A stretch of 64,000 bases of DNA. Source: Oceanimonas doudoroffii. GTDB lineage: Bacteria > Pseudomonadota > Gammaproteobacteria > Enterobacterales > Aeromonadaceae. The position numbers and the translations under genes were made by a program. This document shows positions 1 to 6,767 of this stretch, piece after piece; position 1 is the first letter of the stretch, and each line of letters starts with the position of its first letter. The notes beneath the pieces are model-generated. The model worked only from the letters and a program-made list of their open reading frames with translations. It did no database searches and was not told where the DNA came from. The stretch covers positions 124,001 through 188,000 of the forward strand of contig NZ_NBIM01000004.1 of NCBI RefSeq assembly GCF_002242685.1, in the 5' to 3' direction.

Positions 1-300
1 GTTACAGAAAAGTTCAGAGGCTCATTATTATCTGAATCATCAAAGTTAAATTCAACTATACCTTCTAATGACAAAGTTGCACAGGAGCTACGCTCAAGAC
101 TAAAAGAATATGAGTACGAGATGCATGCTCTGCAAGGTGAATCCGAGGAATATGAACGCTTATATCGATCTTACCCAGACAACAAAGATCAATACTTACC
201 AATATTTGAGGAAACTATTGATAAAAGGTGGAAACTAGCTGGAAGAATTAGAGCTATAGAAAATATGCTAAAGAATAAAGCATATAAAAATAATTATTAA
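1..300 (+). CDS. C-terminal fragment of an unrecognised, charged, probably coiled-coil island cargo protein
   Basis: Frame 1 is open from the window edge to TAA at 298-300, giving 99 residues with no start in view. The sequence is rich in Glu, Lys, Arg and Tyr and looks helical and heptad-like in its second half, ending in a Lys/Asn-rich tail. I do not recognise the family. It lies on the plus strand and converges on the island operon. It is the last gene of the cargo, which in GMT islands commonly holds anti-phage or antibacterial systems; that role is inference only. The AT-rich codon use matches the island. Confidence 0.6.
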   Translation, partial: VTEKFRGSLLSESSKLNSTIPSNDKVAQELRSRLKEYEYEMHALQGESEEYERLYRSYPDNKDQYLPIFEETIDKRWKLAGRIRAIENMLKNKAYKNNY

Positions 301-312
301 TGAAAGACTTAA

Positions 313-618
313 CTACGAAGTATGAGCCTCTAAGTCTGTCAGCACTTTTAAAGCAGCCTCAGGTCCAGAGCTGCATATCATCGTGTCACTCTTAAAATTA
401 CCACAAACCGCAGGTCTGTTTGACAACCCGAATAGCTTACATAGGTTGTTTTCATCGAGTTGCACACACCTTATACCAGCAGGCTTACCATTTGGCATTC
501 CTGGGATAGGAGATGATATCGAAGGCGCAATACAACAAGCACCACAACCTCTGCCTAACCTTTCAGAAATACAAGGTGACCAATCTGAAATGGCTATGTT
601 ATAAACTTCCACCATCAT
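313..618 (-). CDS. YkgJ-type cysteine-cluster protein, foreign copy with a rebuilt N-terminus
   Basis: This 101-residue frame has the cysteine cluster of the YkgJ/Fe-S-cluster-like family: CGACC at residues 25-29, then a PGMPNGKPAG stretch, RC near 51, a C near 60, RPAVC near 71 and a final C. From residue 25 on it resembles small proteins that usually begin with MECR-x-x-CGACC. The first about 23 residues (from MMVEVYN) are not family-like and appear to be supplied by the island. Codons are AT-rich (TGT, GGT, GCT), unlike the host remnant at 6148-6195, so this is not simply the displaced 3' part of the host gene. It starts 10 bp after the gmtX-like gene and could be co-transcribed with it. 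Metal or Fe-S binding is a family inference. Confidence 0.75.
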   Translation of the reverse strand: MMVEVYNIAISDWSPCISERLGRGCGACCIAPSISSPIPGMPNGKPAGIRCVQLDENNLCKLFGLSNRPAVCGNFKSDTMICSSGPEAALKVLTDLEAHTS

Positions 619-628
619 ATATCCACAC

Positions 629-1048
629 TCATTTTTTCAGGTTGAACTCTAACACATTTTTGTCTACTACGCCATGTCGTTCTAAATGCTCAAGATACTT
701 TTGAATATGATAAAGCTGATAGACTAACTCTAACCTTTCACCTTCGGAGATCCTCAGTAAATCTCTCAGTTCGTCTCTTTGTTTTCTATATTTATTTTTT
801 AAATCACGTTCTTTGCGTATCTGCTCTTTGCTTTCTTTACTTTCAACTTCTAAAGCTGGAGAGTTGATTTCCTTGCTCTTAGCTATTCTGCCTTTAATTT
901 CCTTATATCTTGAATGATTATAATTCAGTGCACCATTAGCTAAACCAGCTCGCTTTTCTACCGCATGCTGACTAACTTTAGCACCTTCAGAAATTAGCTC
1001 CAACAAGGCCTTCTCAGCTGCAATCGCACTTCGCTCTGTACTTTTCAT
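629..1048 (-). CDS. gmtX: GmtX-like small HTH/coiled-coil protein
   Basis: A 139-residue basic protein. Residues about 1-55 look like a small helix-turn-helix (ALLELISEGAKVSQHAVEKR, then a predicted recognition helix), followed by a Lys/Glu-rich coiled coil from about 60 to 125. It is the last of four overlapping genes: its ATG overlaps the end of the upstream recombinase gene by 4 bp. Small proteins of this build accompany recombinase sets in GMT islands (GmtX) and Tn554-type elements (TnpC), where they are thought to assist or orient recombination. The name is assigned from length, position and context; no catalytic motif is visible. Confidence 0.6.
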   Translation of the reverse strand: MKSTERSAIAAEKALLELISEGAKVSQHAVEKRAGLANGALNYNHSRYKEIKGRIAKSKEINSPALEVESKESKEQIRKERDLKNKYRKQRDELRDLLRISEGERLELVYQLYHIQKYLEHLERHGVVDKNVLEFNLKK

Positions 1049-3186
1049 AAAATAATTCCGTAGAACTCTAATGCTTGTTTATAGCTTTCCATTTCCAACC
1101 TGAAAAACTCCCTACTCGCTTCGGGTTTACCATCCTCTATAGACTGCAAATATAACAACCTGAACTTTTCATATCTTCTTTTCCAGATGGGTATGGAATC
1201 TTTATCAGCAACTAGGTTTTCACAATCAGGTCTACAGTTCGCTGACTGCGACACAGCTTTAAAATCACACTCTGTTCCATTCATACAATACATCCCGTTA
1301 CCTAGGGATACCAACTTTGATTTTCTCCTTTTAGCCAGTGATTTTGCTTGTTGATATGACTGATACGTTTTTAACTTAGAATCAACATGTTTCTGTTTCT
1401 CTAGTATCTCTCCTCCCCTCCCAAACAAGTTATTACCATTCTGAAATTTCATTGCCATTGTTGCAGCTCTTTCAAGATCTGCTCTTTCCAACTCTTTAGC
1501 AAAGGCGGACGATATTTTACCTGTTAGCATGCTAGATTCTGTTGATCCATCAGAATACCAATCAGCAAGCGTCTTACCAAGATGTTTTAGATGAGAAGCC
1601 AGTTGTCTCATTGTCACTAGCTCTAGCCGCCTTACATGTACAGCAATGCTTCTTCTAAATTGATGTGGGGTTACAGGCCACTTTGCTCCAGGATAGATAA
1701 CTGACTCTACATACTCAGGCTCAGCGATGTTGGGATTAAGTTTCCAAAACTCTTCAGTGTCTTCCTCTGTTATATATATATTATTCCTCTCAGTCCAATT
1801 CATAACCTTTTCTGAGTTCCTTTGAGTTTTCATCAATCTAAACTTACGATGAGTGATAAAATGCCTAGCATCTGTCTTTATATACAAATAATCCAACTCA
1901 TCTTCTTCGACGTTAAAAAGTGCTTTAGCTAACCCCCTCACTTTTGAGAAAACTATTTTAATATAAGGTGAAGCAGCCCACCACTCTTCGACTCCACCTT
2001 CACCGGCATATTTAAAAAGCTTTGACTTTACACCAACCCAACCATTCTCATCAATTAAAGCACCAAACTTTATTATATTTGACTCACTTAATCTCATCCC
2101 TGTCATAGATTGTATGGTTTCACAAGCGATCAAGGCAGCCCGATGATAAAAAATGTAAATCTGCTCTATATCTACATAATACTGCGGGAACCGTCTATTG
2201 TAACTTGTCCTTGCCAAAGGAACATCAACTAACCTTCCGTCAACAATCTTCTGATATGTGTAATTATTATTTTCATAGTCTCTAACGTCATCATCGGAAC
2301 GCCTAATTATAATTTCGCTAACTTTACAATCCTTATCAAAGTAAATATCCCTAAGAGAATCCTGACAAAACTCATCCACATAATACAACCAATTATTATT
2401 ATGGTCTTTTATATTGTTTTCCTTGATGTACTCTTTATACCTTTTAGGCAAACTAGAAACATACTTCCAATTATCTAGCTTGACATTTAAATCATCAAAG
2501 AAATCAATATAGGACTTCCAATACAACCCTAGTATTCTTATTGGCATGCAATAGGTTTGATTATCTCTTCGACCTGGTGATATGGTGCTAAAGTTAAAAT
2601 CAAGAAAATAACCAACCTCTTTGAAAAAGGTATGCTTCATATCACAAACTCTCGAAATAGATTTCAAGTAACCATCTATTGTCCCTGCTCTTTTACCTAT
2701 TGACAACTCACTGATGAACCTTTGTCTGATTGGCTCTCTGTCAAGCCAAAAGAAAGAATTAACTTTCATTTCAGCTAGAATCGAGGATACAGTTGCGAGC
2801 TTCTCTATAATTCTTATTATAGAGGATAGCTTCGCGCCTTTAGGATTAAACCAAATAAGATATAAGCCTATAACCTTAATTTCATTTTTAATTTTATATG
2901 GCAATTTAGAAAAACAAACTTTTCTATATGATTCATCTTCTCTAGCTAAATGCTTGGTAGTCCAAGTATCATCTTCAAACTTTATTGCTAGACCTCGATT
3001 GTTCCCAGGAACAACAAGAACATTACGCAGCATATCAAAGTTACTTTGATGAATGGCATTCATTACTAACTCTGGCGAAGGAAGCTCCACATTTTCAATT
3101 TCAAGTGAAAGCGCAGAATCAACATAGTTTGCTTCACAAGAACTAAAATTCACATTATTCTTTCCATGCATCTGAAACTCCTTCAA
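1045..3186 (-). CDS. gmtZ: Large tyrosine-recombinase-like integrase, GmtZ-like
   Basis: A 713-residue protein with a C-terminal tyrosine recombinase fold. Visible catalytic positions are Arg365 in MTGMRLSESN, His508 and Arg511 in PHQFRR, His535, and Tyr544 nine residues later in ADWY, the classical H-x8-Y spacing. A cysteine-containing tail follows (CMNGTEC, then ANCRPDC, about residues 630-660), which may bind metal. The core looks complete, so it may be active. The gene overlaps its upstream neighbour by 32 bp and its downstream one by 4 bp, indicating one translationally coupled operon. The GMT name is from context; a TnpB-type recombinase is the alternative reading. Confidence 0.7.
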   Translation of the reverse strand: MKEFQMHGKNNVNFSSCEANYVDSALSLEIENVELPSPELVMNAIHQSNFDMLRNVLVVPGNNRGLAIKFEDDTWTTKHLAREDESYRKVCFSKLPYKIKNEIKVIGLYLIWFNPKGAKLSSIIRIIEKLATVSSILAEMKVNSFFWLDREPIRQRFISELSIGKRAGTIDGYLKSISRVCDMKHTFFKEVGYFLDFNFSTISPGRRDNQTYCMPIRILGLYWKSYIDFFDDLNVKLDNWKYVSSLPKRYKEYIKENNIKDHNNNWLYYVDEFCQDSLRDIYFDKDCKVSEIIIRRSDDDVRDYENNNYTYQKIVDGRLVDVPLARTSYNRRFPQYYVDIEQIYIFYHRAALIACETIQSMTGMRLSESNIIKFGALIDENGWVGVKSKLFKYAGEGGVEEWWAASPYIKIVFSKVRGLAKALFNVEEDELDYLYIKTDARHFITHRKFRLMKTQRNSEKVMNWTERNNIYITEEDTEEFWKLNPNIAEPEYVESVIYPGAKWPVTPHQFRRSIAVHVRRLELVTMRQLASHLKHLGKTLADWYSDGSTESSMLTGKISSAFAKELERADLERAATMAMKFQNGNNLFGRGGEILEKQKHVDSKLKTYQSYQQAKSLAKRRKSKLVSLGNGMYCMNGTECDFKAVSQSANCRPDCENLVADKDSIPIWKRRYEKFRLLYLQSIEDGKPEASREFFRLEMESYKQALEFYGIIL

Positions 3187-4888
3187 TCTGCAGCCTTCTT
3201 TTAGCTCTTGCTATAATTTTCACATCAACAAAACTAAGAGCAAAATTGATTTTATCGACAATGTCCTTGTAATTTTCCACAGCCTTTTTCGATGAAATAT
3301 ATACAGCTTTATTGTACTCTATCATATGTTTAAAACTTAAAAGATGGTATATAGCTTCTTCATCCTCAACAACTGCACAATTTGGACAGTTGATGCAATT
3401 AGAAAGGTCAGCACATATTTTGGGATTTCTTTTGTAATTTCTTTGTTTTGAAATAAACCTTCTTGCATGTTGGGAGCCGCCAACTTCATCTAAACATCCG
3501 AGCCCATTAATTTGATATGGGACTTCGCCACTACTAGCCAGATTTACACCATAGCTATCAGCATATACCCTTCTCTCATCTATGCTTTTTTTATTTATAG
3601 CCAACCTGGTTAGCTCACCCAAGGCCTTGCTCATGGCCTGCCTAGCTTCTTCTGGATTACCGAGTGCATAATTATTACGGTATGTAGCCCAAGTGTGCTG
3701 AGCTTTATTCAATGTAACAAAAGGGTTACCTATTTCATTGTCAGCTAACTGCTCTACCGTCTTTCTAATACTCTGACTGGATATTCGGGGCATTAAGATA
3801 TCATTATTTTTTAACGCAACTACTAATGGGTGCCTATTGAATGCAACTAACGCTGGCTTAAACCTTCTGATCTCATCATCAGCACGGCTTATCATGAAGA
3901 AAAGTGAATTGTGATTTAGCGTGTAATTGTTACTCAACAAATACTTTACGAGCTCATTCCTTACCCTCATAAACTCCTTAAAAAATACCAGCCCTTTCTT
4001 ATCCCCCTGAACTGAGGAGTCACCTATATTTAACCTAACAAATTTTTTAGCCCTACCTTTAAAAATCCAGTCAGTCTCCATACCCTTATCATCAGAATTA
4101 ATACTATCCACTTCTATCTGGCAAAGTTGACTCTCATTACTCCACGTAAAAAAACAAAACAATACAAAAGAACTATGCATAAACCAATACACTGGGTTTC
4201 GGCACAACAAATCTACGACTATACTTGACGATTTCCACTTTACCTCTTTTACTTCTGCCAACTGTACTAGACTAAAGTCGCGAAAACCTTCAACTGTTCG
4301 TCTAATGTGGTCATCTATAATTTCTTTGTTAACTGAAAAGATCTCAAATGCAACTTTTACGACAACCTCTAGCTCTTTACTTGTGTAAACATTAGAGCTT
4401 GTCACTCTGCCTTTGTGCTGAAAGTTATATCTATATGGTGAGTTTATCACACCCAAGTACAGCAAAAGCTTATTAACAATAGAAAGCAGACCAAGGGCAT
4501 GCGTTCTTCCAATTTCTCTAGAATAAATTTTCTTTTGTAAACTTAATACATACTCCTGCAATGTAGAAGGATCATGAACATTCCTTCCTCTATCCACTTG
4601 GAAGTCAAAGAAAGCCTTCACAGCATTATAAACAGTACCCCTTCCTGCCGCACTATAACCTAAAATGAATTGAGCTACGGGCTTGGCAATAGCATTCATA
4701 TCAGAGGAATAGCTATCTATATGCTCATCAAAAAAAGCTTTAGCAACCCCTCTAGCTGATCTCGCGATCAAAGGAGAAGAGCCAAGAAAGCCTTCTAATG
4801 ATAAAAGGTTCAAGTCAATTACATAGCGACCATCTCCTACTTTACTAACATTTATGACTAAGTCAGAGTCGTATTTGTCGTTGCTCAT
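3155..4888 (-). CDS. Degenerate recombinase-like protein between the GmtY- and GmtZ-like genes
   Basis: A 577-residue protein with the length and position of the middle member of multi-recombinase operons. The usual first catalytic Arg region (G-x-R) reads TWSNESQLCQI, without the Arg. The box-II region reads QHTWATYRNN, and no convincing H-x8-Y motif follows. A cysteine cluster (CADLSNCINCPNC, about residues 490-505) resembles the zinc-finger-like tail of the neighbouring recombinase. I infer a catalytically dead or structural partner that forms a complex with the other two. It overlaps the upstream recombinase gene by 4 bp (ATGA) and the downstream gene by 32 bp. Confidence 0.6.
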   Translation of the reverse strand: MSNDKYDSDLVINVSKVGDGRYVIDLNLLSLEGFLGSSPLIARSARGVAKAFFDEHIDSYSSDMNAIAKPVAQFILGYSAAGRGTVYNAVKAFFDFQVDRGRNVHDPSTLQEYVLSLQKKIYSREIGRTHALGLLSIVNKLLLYLGVINSPYRYNFQHKGRVTSSNVYTSKELEVVVKVAFEIFSVNKEIIDDHIRRTVEGFRDFSLVQLAEVKEVKWKSSSIVVDLLCRNPVYWFMHSSFVLFCFFTWSNESQLCQIEVDSINSDDKGMETDWIFKGRAKKFVRLNIGDSSVQGDKKGLVFFKEFMRVRNELVKYLLSNNYTLNHNSLFFMISRADDEIRRFKPALVAFNRHPLVVALKNNDILMPRISSQSIRKTVEQLADNEIGNPFVTLNKAQHTWATYRNNYALGNPEEARQAMSKALGELTRLAINKKSIDERRVYADSYGVNLASSGEVPYQINGLGCLDEVGGSQHARRFISKQRNYKRNPKICADLSNCINCPNCAVVEDEEAIYHLLSFKHMIEYNKAVYISSKKAVENYKDIVDKINFALSFVDVKIIARAKRRLQIEGVSDAWKE

Positions 4889-6105
4889 AGTTCATCCTTT
4901 AGCGCTGTTGAGAAAAACTCATCCATCACTTGAGCAATACAATTTGCGAACCCTTCCTGATGAAAAAAACTAACGTACTTCAATGTTGTCTTTTCATCTA
5001 CATGCCCCATAAAATATTTGGTAACACTAATACATACCTCTTGATTTCCTGGTTCAATATTCATCGCAAACTTTATTAGATTATTTGCGAAAGTAGCTCT
5101 TAGATCATGAGGCTTGTGTGGGAAAATATCGCAATATTTTCTTTCGTATTCTTTCTTAAGCCTAAACCACGCGCTGTAGAACGCCTGCTTTGAAAAATCT
5201 CTTCCAGTTTTAGAAATAAAGAGACGGCTACTTTTAGCGCCAAGTGGGTTACGACTCTCTCTTTTAAGTTTCCTTAGGGAATATCTTTTAGAATTCTTGT
5301 AATCTAGAACCTGTTCAAGAAGGTTAGATGTAAAAAAAATCTCTCTTTCTTTTGAAAACTTCGTCTCCACATTTACACTAGGACCTATTTTTAGCCCTCT
5401 TATCACACTTTCTCCTTGAAAGAGTTCCTCTCTAAAAATACTTTCTGGAAGTGTAATTACCTCTGAAAGTCTCAAACCGCAGGTCAACATTAGTTTCAAT
5501 ATTAATTTGAATTCTTCACTTTGGTTTTCCATTAAACTTAACAATTTCGCCTGAGTTTTCTCATTCAATGGCTTAAGTGACTTCCCTCCCGCTTTTACAA
5601 CTCTTATTGCCAAGTCAGAACTTTGAACTTTCCGATATCCATCAACAATACTCAACTTAGATTTGTAATAGTTTTCAGAGTTAACAATACCTTCATAATC
5701 TAACATATCGTAGAAGTCTTTTATCACCAATATATAAGCATTGGCTGTACTGCTGCTCAATGTTTCACTGCTAACTCTTTCGATTAGATATTGTCGAAAA
5801 CCATAGGTGGGACTGTCATATTTAAATTCATAAGAGGAGAATGGATTAATATTGTAATCTATTAACCATCTCACCCATACTTTAAATGCTTTAACTGTCG
5901 GCGTAAGATCTTTCCTACCATCTGAAGCTTTTCTTATAACATATAAGTTGATTAACCTTCTCAACTTAGGACTAAAGTCACCGATCAAGATTGGAACATG
6001 AAAGCTCCTATAATTTCCCTTCATGACAAGGCGTTCATCATATGGGCCTAGGGTTTCTGCTACCCCCAGCCTAATAGGCACATTTACTAGTATGTCTACA
6101 GTCAT
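4885..6105 (-). CDS. gmtY: Tyrosine recombinase, GmtY-like
   Basis: A 406-residue site-specific recombinase with an N-terminal SAM-like core-binding region (about 60-150) and a C-terminal catalytic domain. The catalytic set is intact: Arg212 in TCGLRLSEV, His333 and Arg336 in PHDLR, Gly-His at 367-368 and Tyr377 in TTLKYV. It is the first gene of the four-gene operon. Its start lies about 65 bp inside the proposed island boundary, as expected for an integrase next to its own attachment site. It probably carries out excision and integration together with the downstream partners. Family membership as a tyrosine recombinase is secure; the GMT subtype is a contextual judgement. Confidence 0.8.
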   Translation of the reverse strand: MTVDILVNVPIRLGVAETLGPYDERLVMKGNYRSFHVPILIGDFSPKLRRLINLYVIRKASDGRKDLTPTVKAFKVWVRWLIDYNINPFSSYEFKYDSPTYGFRQYLIERVSSETLSSSTANAYILVIKDFYDMLDYEGIVNSENYYKSKLSIVDGYRKVQSSDLAIRVVKAGGKSLKPLNEKTQAKLLSLMENQSEEFKLILKLMLTCGLRLSEVITLPESIFREELFQGESVIRGLKIGPSVNVETKFSKEREIFFTSNLLEQVLDYKNSKRYSLRKLKRESRNPLGAKSSRLFISKTGRDFSKQAFYSAWFRLKKEYERKYCDIFPHKPHDLRATFANNLIKFAMNIEPGNQEVCISVTKYFMGHVDEKTTLKYVSFFHQEGFANCIAQVMDEFFSTALKDEL

Positions 6106-6147
6106 GAAACACCAAAGTTTCTAAAGCAGACTTTAAAGGTAGTAGTT

Positions 6148-6195
6148 CTAACTGATTTTGAACAGGGTGGCGCCGCAGTTGGGCCGGCACTCCAT
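6148..6195 (-). pseudogene. 5' remnant of the host ykgJ-type gene, cut by the island
   Basis: On the minus strand the chaC stop TGA overlaps an ATG (TGATG) that opens MECRPNCGA, the typical beginning of small YkgJ-type cysteine-cluster proteins. After codon 9 (GCC at 6171-6169) the family sequence, which should continue with two Cys codons, is lost and the frame runs through TLFKIS to a stop at 6148-6150. The first nine codons are GC-rich host DNA and what follows is AT-rich. This marks the insertion point and shows that chaC and ykgJ were a coupled pair before the insertion. Confidence 0.75.
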
Positions 6196-6767
6196 CAGCC
6201 TTCTCCTTCAACCGGTGGCAACAGCGCCACCAGCCCGGCCACATGGTCGTCATGCACGCCCTGGCGGGCCAGCGCTTCGGCCAGGTTGAGCAGATAGTCC
6301 CGGTTGCTGCCGCTGGGGCCATGGGCATGGGCGATCTGCGCCGCCATTTCCGCCGGCGGCGCGTCCCCCAGAAAGGCGGCGTTGTGCTCGGTGGCGAGGT
6401 AAATCAGGCCATCTTCGGCCTGGCCGCTGTCAAATTGCACCGCCACCCGCTCCCGCAGGTAGCCATTCTTTTCCCGCAAATCGAGCTGTGCCAGTACCGC
6501 CGGCTCAATACGGTAGGCCATGCCGTGGCAGCGGACCTTAGGCGCACGAACCAGGGTGGCTACCCGGCCCGGCTGCGCCGGCGTGCCGCGATGATCGTGG
6601 GAGCCCTGCCAGAACCGGCGCGCCCAGCCGTCAATCCAGGCCGGACGGCGTTCCACAAAGGGAAAGTCCGCCTTCCAGATAAGGGAGCCGTAGCCAAACA
6701 GCCAGAAGCTGTCATGCTCATCGAAATGGGTCATGGCGCGATTGTGCGCCCGGGTGTCGAAACTCAT
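6195..6767 (-). CDS. chaC: Gamma-glutamylcyclotransferase, ChaC family
   Basis: A 190-residue cytosolic protein of the ChaC family, which cleaves glutathione to 5-oxoproline and Cys-Gly. The signature YGSLIW lies near residue 26. The catalytic Glu is in LREKNGY near residue 100, and the HGMAY segment is also typical. The length is slightly shorter than E. coli ChaC, so the C-terminus was compared with the following gene: its TGA overlaps the ATG of the broken ykgJ remnant, so the gene itself appears complete and the island landed just behind it. No strong ribosome binding site is seen before either the first ATG or the second Met (residue 12), so the start is uncertain. Confidence 0.88.
   Translation of the reverse strand: MSFDTRAHNRAMTHFDEHDSFWLFGYGSLIWKADFPFVERRPAWIDGWARRFWQGSHDHRGTPAQPGRVATLVRAPKVRCHGMAYRIEPAVLAQLDLREKNGYLRERVAVQFDSGQAEDGLIYLATEHNAAFLGDAPPAEMAAQIAHAHGPSGSNRDYLLNLAEALARQGVHDDHVAGLVALLPPVEGEG

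Follow-up and report, generated by a model that had tools for sequence, protein, structure and literature searches.

A probable strand-biased circularizing integrative element in ykgJ of Oceanimonas doudoroffii carries a divergent ykgJ of its own

The ykgJ gene of Oceanimonas doudoroffii is interrupted by an island of 13,552 bp, which has the core operon and the termini of a strand-biased circularizing integrative element (SE) such as SE-6283 (Tn6283) of Vibrio alfacsensis, and which carries a complete and divergent second ykgJ directly behind the core gene srap. The reading of the whole as an SE in ykgJ that brings a replacement for the gene it breaks is one in which we have good confidence. 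The window, i.e. the whole stretch of DNA analysed, comprises 64,000 nucleotides (C4:124001-188000) of the 3.83-Mb genome; coordinates without a prefix are positions in the window.

The upstream neighbour of ykgJ is the host gene chaC (6195..6767, minus strand; Pfam ChaC 3e-52), as it is in the related loci L015, L017 and L018, and the ykgJ start at 6195 (minus strand) overlaps the chaC stop. The first-pass annotation had proposed that host ykgJ is cut after nine codons, MECRPNCGA, and this is borne out by the sequence at 6195-6169 and by the empty sites of relatives. The 5' fragment (6169..6195, minus strand) ends in GGCGCC, the 6 bp adjoining motif C, and the cut lies between 6169 and 6168, directly behind TGYGGNGCN, in agreement with the core TG(C/T)GG(C/T)GC that had been named as a candidate crossover. 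The element begins with ACCCTG, and its left terminus, motif C (ACCCTG...TTAGAAC; 6144..6168, minus strand), has counterparts of the form ACCCT...TTAGAA in the attL sites of five further ykgJ-SEs; SE-6283 also has ACCCT near its left end.

The AT-rich island leaves the window at the left edge and has its right end outside it. Both junctions were read in L007 (C4:112001-132000) and place the island at C4:116617-130168. The left junction reads host ...TGCGGCGCC followed by ACCCTG, and the right junction ...AGGGT GT GCTTTC followed by host TGCTGCATCGCC. The element ends form imperfect inverted repeats, ACCCTG...TTAGAA against ACCCTA...TTAGAA, with a register shift of one base. The 3' remainder of host ykgJ was found at the far end, at C4:116398-116628, with 49% identity to the ykgJ frame inside the element, so that both ends of the island lie in the same gene. 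These two, the element copy and the host remnant, are the only strong YkgJ matches in the genome; the next match has E=0.002.

The empty site is preserved in the same genus. A single YkgJ match was found in each of 21 of 22 genomes, and none in the remaining one, which is 84% complete. In all five loci fetched ykgJ is open without a stop and adjoined by envC; chaC is on the other side in three of them (L015, L017 and L018), giving an intact chaC-ykgJ-envC order, and the other two have an intact ykgJ with no chaC within 1.5 kb. Neither a relative without ykgJ behind chaC, among these five loci, nor a far island end in another gene was found. The insertion therefore happened within this genus and its target was ykgJ, as the earlier annotation had suspected.

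The intA-tfp-intB-srap operon is at the left end of the element, as in SEs. The gene intA (4885..6105, minus strand) encodes a tyrosine recombinase of 406 aa with R-H-R-Y (Pfam Phage_integrase 5.8e-13; profile match to SE-6283 IntA 2.1e-20). It is followed by tfp (3155..4888, minus strand), encoding a tyrosine-recombinase-fold protein of 577 aa recognised by alignment and by a profile match to SE-6283 Tfp (9.8e-06), and by intB (1045..3186, minus strand, counted from the first start of the frame, a TTG; the true start may be further downstream), encoding a large recombinase of 713 aa with R-H-R-Y (profile match to SE-6283 IntB 5.4e-13). The small accessory protein Srap, of 139 aa, is encoded at 629..1048 (minus strand; profile match to SE-6283 Srap 2.3e-05). 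As judged by eye, IntA and IntB have R-H-R-Y and Tfp does not, which is also the pattern in SEs; in the alignment Tfp lacks the first Arg and the His. Profiles from six ykgJ-SEs pair each core protein with one of the four of SE-6283, at E between 2.1e-20 and 2.3e-05 (five target sequences, Z set to 1000). Beyond the operon, the 3' part of the first cargo gene, a 178-aa frame, occupies 1..300 on the plus strand, and the cargo runs on to the right element end at C4:116617. It is very likely that the element in ykgJ is an SE. A gamma-mobile-trio element, the first candidate, was rejected, as none of six window proteins had such an NCBIfam match.

The element-borne ykgJ (313..618, minus strand; 101 aa; Pfam CxxCxxCC E=8.7e-08) is the fifth gene in line, AT-rich, on the same strand as srap and starting 10 bp behind it. 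An AT-rich ykgJ-type frame with a different N-terminus had been reported downstream of the island operon, and this is what is found: the N-terminus is of the SDWSPCIS type, and its first two cysteines are separated by seven or eight residues rather than three. The further suggestion, that the frame is a 3' part of ykgJ which the element had captured, was rejected, since the frame is complete and conserved, with the whole family domain and an N-terminus of its own. Recent capture is not upheld either, as the copies make up their own subfamily, occupy the same place in every ykgJ-SE read and bear the marks of purifying selection. The eight cysteines are invariant in 17 of 17 element-type rows aligned. 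The dN/dS of the element ykgJ copies was 0.041 and 0.031 in two close pairs, and that of tfp was 0.140 in the one close pair tested; these ratios indicate that the element ykgJ is under strong purifying selection. Phylogenetic trees of the domain without the N-terminus (77 columns, bootstrap not settled) gave one supported clade of element and element-type proteins (96/91, 96/97), apart from the host genes and with one standard protein (P0045) included; the second tree left out 15 element-type rows of unclassified context and 8 chromosomal rows of the first. The host ykgJ remnant of this genome grouped with its own genus, and the element ykgJ does not appear to have been captured from the present host.

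At least eight relatives of Tfp were found, in Vibrio, Shewanella, Corallincola, Pseudoalteromonas and one further source, scored among the 8000 candidates sharing most words. Six ykgJ-SEs were read, namely the present one and those of an uncultured Vibrio (L008/L051/G324, taken as Vibrio), Vibrio F10 (L009/G542), Vibrio 99-70-13A1 (L010/G558), G233 (taken as Shewanella donghaensis) and G441. Each of the six lies behind M(D/E)CRxxCGA of ykgJ, and the use of one codon by six elements in different hosts shows that the position is not due to chance. All six also have ykgJ directly behind srap, and the remaining cargo varies among them. For three further elements (V. campbellii, Corallincola and one other contig) the pairing of Tfp with YkgJ was inferred rather than read from the loci; in the putative V. 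campbellii pair Tfp is close to that of G324 and YkgJ is distant from it. Co-inheritance of ykgJ and Tfp gave a Mantel r of 0.645 (55 of 20000 permutations as high) over nine pairs, three of them of inferred pairing; the correlation is driven by two close pairs, and one case is discordant.

Two of these loci hold additional features. A second SE-like core operon (L051:2119-8036, minus strand), at the 3' end of ycgN, adjoins the ykgJ-SE of the uncultured Vibrio and faces away from it; the ycgN 3' end is also an insertion point in L171. In the ykgJ-SE of G441 (L092/L093) a 306-aa frame with an identical start, which we take to be IS-like, occurs three times, twice between tfp and srap and once in the cargo.

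A survey of insertion targets was based on a search of the order (394 genomes, 22 with a Tfp match) and of Vibrio (227 genomes, 50 with a Tfp match), because a class-wide search of 369 genomes with a broad Tfp alignment matched only the window's own genome. Part of the Tfp matches listed were taken, and 71 loci with 71 intA frames were read. There were 27 at gor, 18 recognised as breaking a gene, 17 with unclassified upstream contexts (L101 and L184 being one place), 3 at a contig edge (of which L183 has a bcp copy) and 6 others, beside trmA, a LysR gene or the ycgN 3' end, which were scored outside the gene-breaking class. The broken genes were recognised by motifs chosen after seeing the loci, and a homologue of the broken gene is carried in 15 of the 18 gene-breaking insertions and for five of the seven genes: ykgJ (6/6), bcp (5/5), radA (2/2), topB (1/1) and a gene for a YgjP-like metallopeptidase (1/1). 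No copy was found in the 17-18 kb searched for comM (0/2; L107, L111) and dinB (0/1; L060). The counts are not independent, because loci of one target are related, and the ykgJ copies were found by motif because the nine-codon ykgJ piece in L007 is too short for a homologue search. LysR-type homologues in L156 and L181 (25-26% identity) and one of a methyltransferase in L109 (32%) were left uncounted, together with out-of-frame low-complexity matches in L007; the LysR and methyltransferase families are large, and these homologues may be due to chance. The ykgJ, bcp and topB copies immediately follow srap, the copy of the YgjP-like gene comes after a cargo gene, and the radA copies lie upstream of intA.

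The gor 3' end was the commonest SE insertion point in the survey (e.g. L053, L058 and L152), and the gor frame is almost complete there. In six of seven loci looked at the frame reaches EEFVTM with a stop within three codons; the seventh does not have this pattern. No gor homologue was found from intA onward in the 27 gor loci, three of which have less than 3 kb available after the core. The gor insertions, which leave the gene almost whole, make a contrast class for a rule of replacement. Such a rule, that SEs in gene bodies generally carry a replacement, in several lineages as the fifth gene, with an altered site that is immune and a copy that the host may keep, is put forward tentatively, as a proposal somewhat more apt to fail than to hold. 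If it is true, SEs in gene bodies would offer bacteria a general way of exchanging genes for divergent versions. What had been a remark on single elements (bcp in SE-6283, recA in the recA mobile element) becomes testable over five target genes.

In the proposed mechanism IntA and IntB, together with Tfp and Srap, would copy out a circle, with the strand bias predicted from the likeness to SEs, and the circle would be inserted between TGYGGNGCN and TGYTGY. Host ykgJ would thereby be inactivated, and its function would pass to the element copy, which probably shares the transcript of the recombinase operon and may also be read from the chaC promoter. A working replacement for the broken gene is a likely reading, and if the copy does take over, the insertion should therefore cost the host little. 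Growth data are published for SE-6283, which is inserted in bcp and carries a bcp for which its authors suggest compensation (PMC9345347, PMC5991714). The maximum growth rate of E. coli with SE-6283 in bcp equalled that of the wild type; a cost-free replacement is nevertheless not shown, because the bcp deletion grew faster and the strain with the SE ended at a lower density, formed more aggregates and contained more dead cells (PMC5991714). The present element, together with the related ones that break other genes and carry a homologue, suggests that such elements are able to replace the genes they disrupt.

In one group of Vibrio the element version may have become the only copy of the host. 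A YkgJ match at E 1e-10 was found in 225 of 227 Vibrio genomes; the ten best matches extend over the element-type N-terminus, and the score falls off clearly after them. Of these ten, four belong to ykgJ-SEs already described and six come from G516, G587, G452, G162, G175 and G198, in which the element-type ykgJ is the only YkgJ match and sits between ycgN and recR. Three ordinary Vibrio loci (L122, L124 and L126) have the short form of ykgJ at this ycgN-recR locus. No core genes of ykgJ-SEs were detected by tblastn in 20 or 40 kb around the six resident copies. A host that came to depend on the copy and then lost the element, so that the replacement stayed as the only ykgJ, is a possible explanation.

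The opposite course, in which the element-type ykgJ is native to one Vibrio group, was captured by an SE and then spread, concerns the take-over step only and is judged rather unlikely, though it is the strongest of the alternatives. It would account for the six genomes that hold the gene at its native locus without an element, and the tree tolerates all element copies as one clade (AU test, p=0.26, no rejection) and is compatible with transfer in either direction. The six resident copies, however, form a group of their own, which one tree nests within the element copies. Element copies are present in this genome, in Vibrio and Shewanella and, by inferred pairing, in Corallincola, and the usual chromosomal ykgJ in the searches is of the short MECR type.

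That the copy serves the element rather than the host, by entering homologous recombination as decoy or donor or by acting as a recombination factor, is improbable. The copy does follow the core operon in place and strand, and for Tn552-II it is proposed that the target and the target-gene-like gene (tgl) may act together in transposition (PMC12486829). Selection at the protein level and the retained cysteines point instead to a working protein, and different targets are matched by different proteins (peroxiredoxin, topoisomerase, RadA, metallopeptidase). Moreover, intA, tfp, intB and srap are the genes named as needed for attL x attR recombination of SE-6283; as far as described, bcp was not among the genes targeted for knockout, and the tfp knockout was unobtainable (PMC10214605). 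Still less probable, and disfavoured here, is that the internal ykgJ was picked up by chance as ordinary cargo in an AT-rich host and resembles the target by coincidence or through inaccurate excision there. The varying remainder of the cargo and the seemingly distant YkgJ of V. campbellii beside a close Tfp would fit this. Against it stand the same place in six of six elements, the element-type N-terminus, purifying selection and the same arrangement with the bcp and topB copies.

The left arm of the attachment site was scored against a host consensus with 12 fixed positions, which spans the 15 bases to the left of the spacer. The score is 8-12 of 12 for 31 chromosomal ykgJ genes, 5-7 for the six element copies and 6-7 for the six copies resident in Vibrio; the comparison is descriptive because the consensus was written from such host genes. 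The site used in this genome scores only 9 in a hand count, and strict agreement with the consensus is therefore not needed. The element copy is possibly protected from insertion; it may not itself be a target, because its left arm is rewritten with the longer stretch between the first two cysteines, although this is the weaker part of the proposal. Among the other targets, the five bcp copies read show QL at the cut in place of the GE of GVWGEKKF, and the RadA copies read CGYDSPRW or CSYESSKW, the host pieces ending in CNDCGA and continuing as GADFPRW. Excess divergence at the left arm of the bcp copies was not found, 8 to 38 of 104 windows being as low or lower.

The junctions also bear on the origin of the element. 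The attL keeps the host GGCGCC. At attR, AGGGT is followed by eight bases foreign to the host, which end in GCTTTC here, in GTCCTA in G233 and in GGTTTA in G441. The form GGNGCN, expected in these last six bases from a ykgJ donor under the SE model, is present in none of the three elements read to the right end. If the SE model holds, these copies would therefore have come from elsewhere, e.g. plasmids; later mutation could also explain the bases. In pSEA1, SE-6283 lies between two genes annotated as porin.

The kind of element is known. SE-6283 shares intA-tfp-intB-srap, ACCCT near the left end, insertion within a host gene, bcp, and a homologue of that gene immediately behind srap; it differs in its target, in core proteins that are only about 20-30% identical in local alignments, and in that the copy described here has a remodelled N-terminus at the attachment site. 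The recA mobile element (RME) of Vibrio likewise breaks its target, recA, and carries a divergent complete recA (PMC4405046, PMC4334540), but is a 32.8-kb island with a phage integrase and XerS, the SE core operon going unmentioned in the available text; it is defined by insertion in recA, and the target here is ykgJ. Tn552-II and elements of the Tn554 type have tnpABC followed by a target-gene-like gene, for which rescue is proposed, and insert site-specifically by way of a circle with a biased spacer (PMC12486829); they are Gram-positive with another target, and Tn554 has no tfp counterpart according to PMC10214605. GInts resemble the present element in a four-gene operon of recombinases and a small protein (PMC5385486). 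As described, their non-catalytic protein is GinC, the third in the order ginABCD, whereas here the second protein is without the catalytic residues and the third has them; SEs and GInts are published as separate clusters. With SE-6283, RME and Tn552-II as precedents, the ykgJ element adds a new lineage to a kind already known.

The literature searched gave no earlier mention of this lineage, of the additional target genes or of the ykgJ copies resident in Vibrio. The words ykgJ, cysteine cluster and target gene are absent from the main text of the 2023 SE survey, and a YkgJ-family frame is mentioned in an SGI1-related element of V. cholerae. The new parts are thus the breadth of targets and the possible take-over by the host, and the exact boundaries given above help to find the ykgJ-SE lineage in other genomes.

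The cargo of the element includes, left of the window, a repeat of about 115 bp in two copies (L007:8770-8882 and L007:9991-10113), 75-78% alike and beside small genes; the repeat ends resemble integron attC sites, but in folding no strand was much better than shuffles (best z -1.49). Among SEs of different targets a cargo pair recurs, as seen by eye, with a frame of about 180 aa followed by one of about 460 aa that starts MLRKWQ or MQLRQWQ (L050:10848-12754; L062:10802-12747 and L064:9338-11262, the last two on the reversed locus). Relatives of the recombinases also lie on plasmids, with 159 records for Tfp (about 34-36% identity at best) and 281 for IntA (about 38%); among the matches listed, most are from Enterobacter and other enterobacteria.
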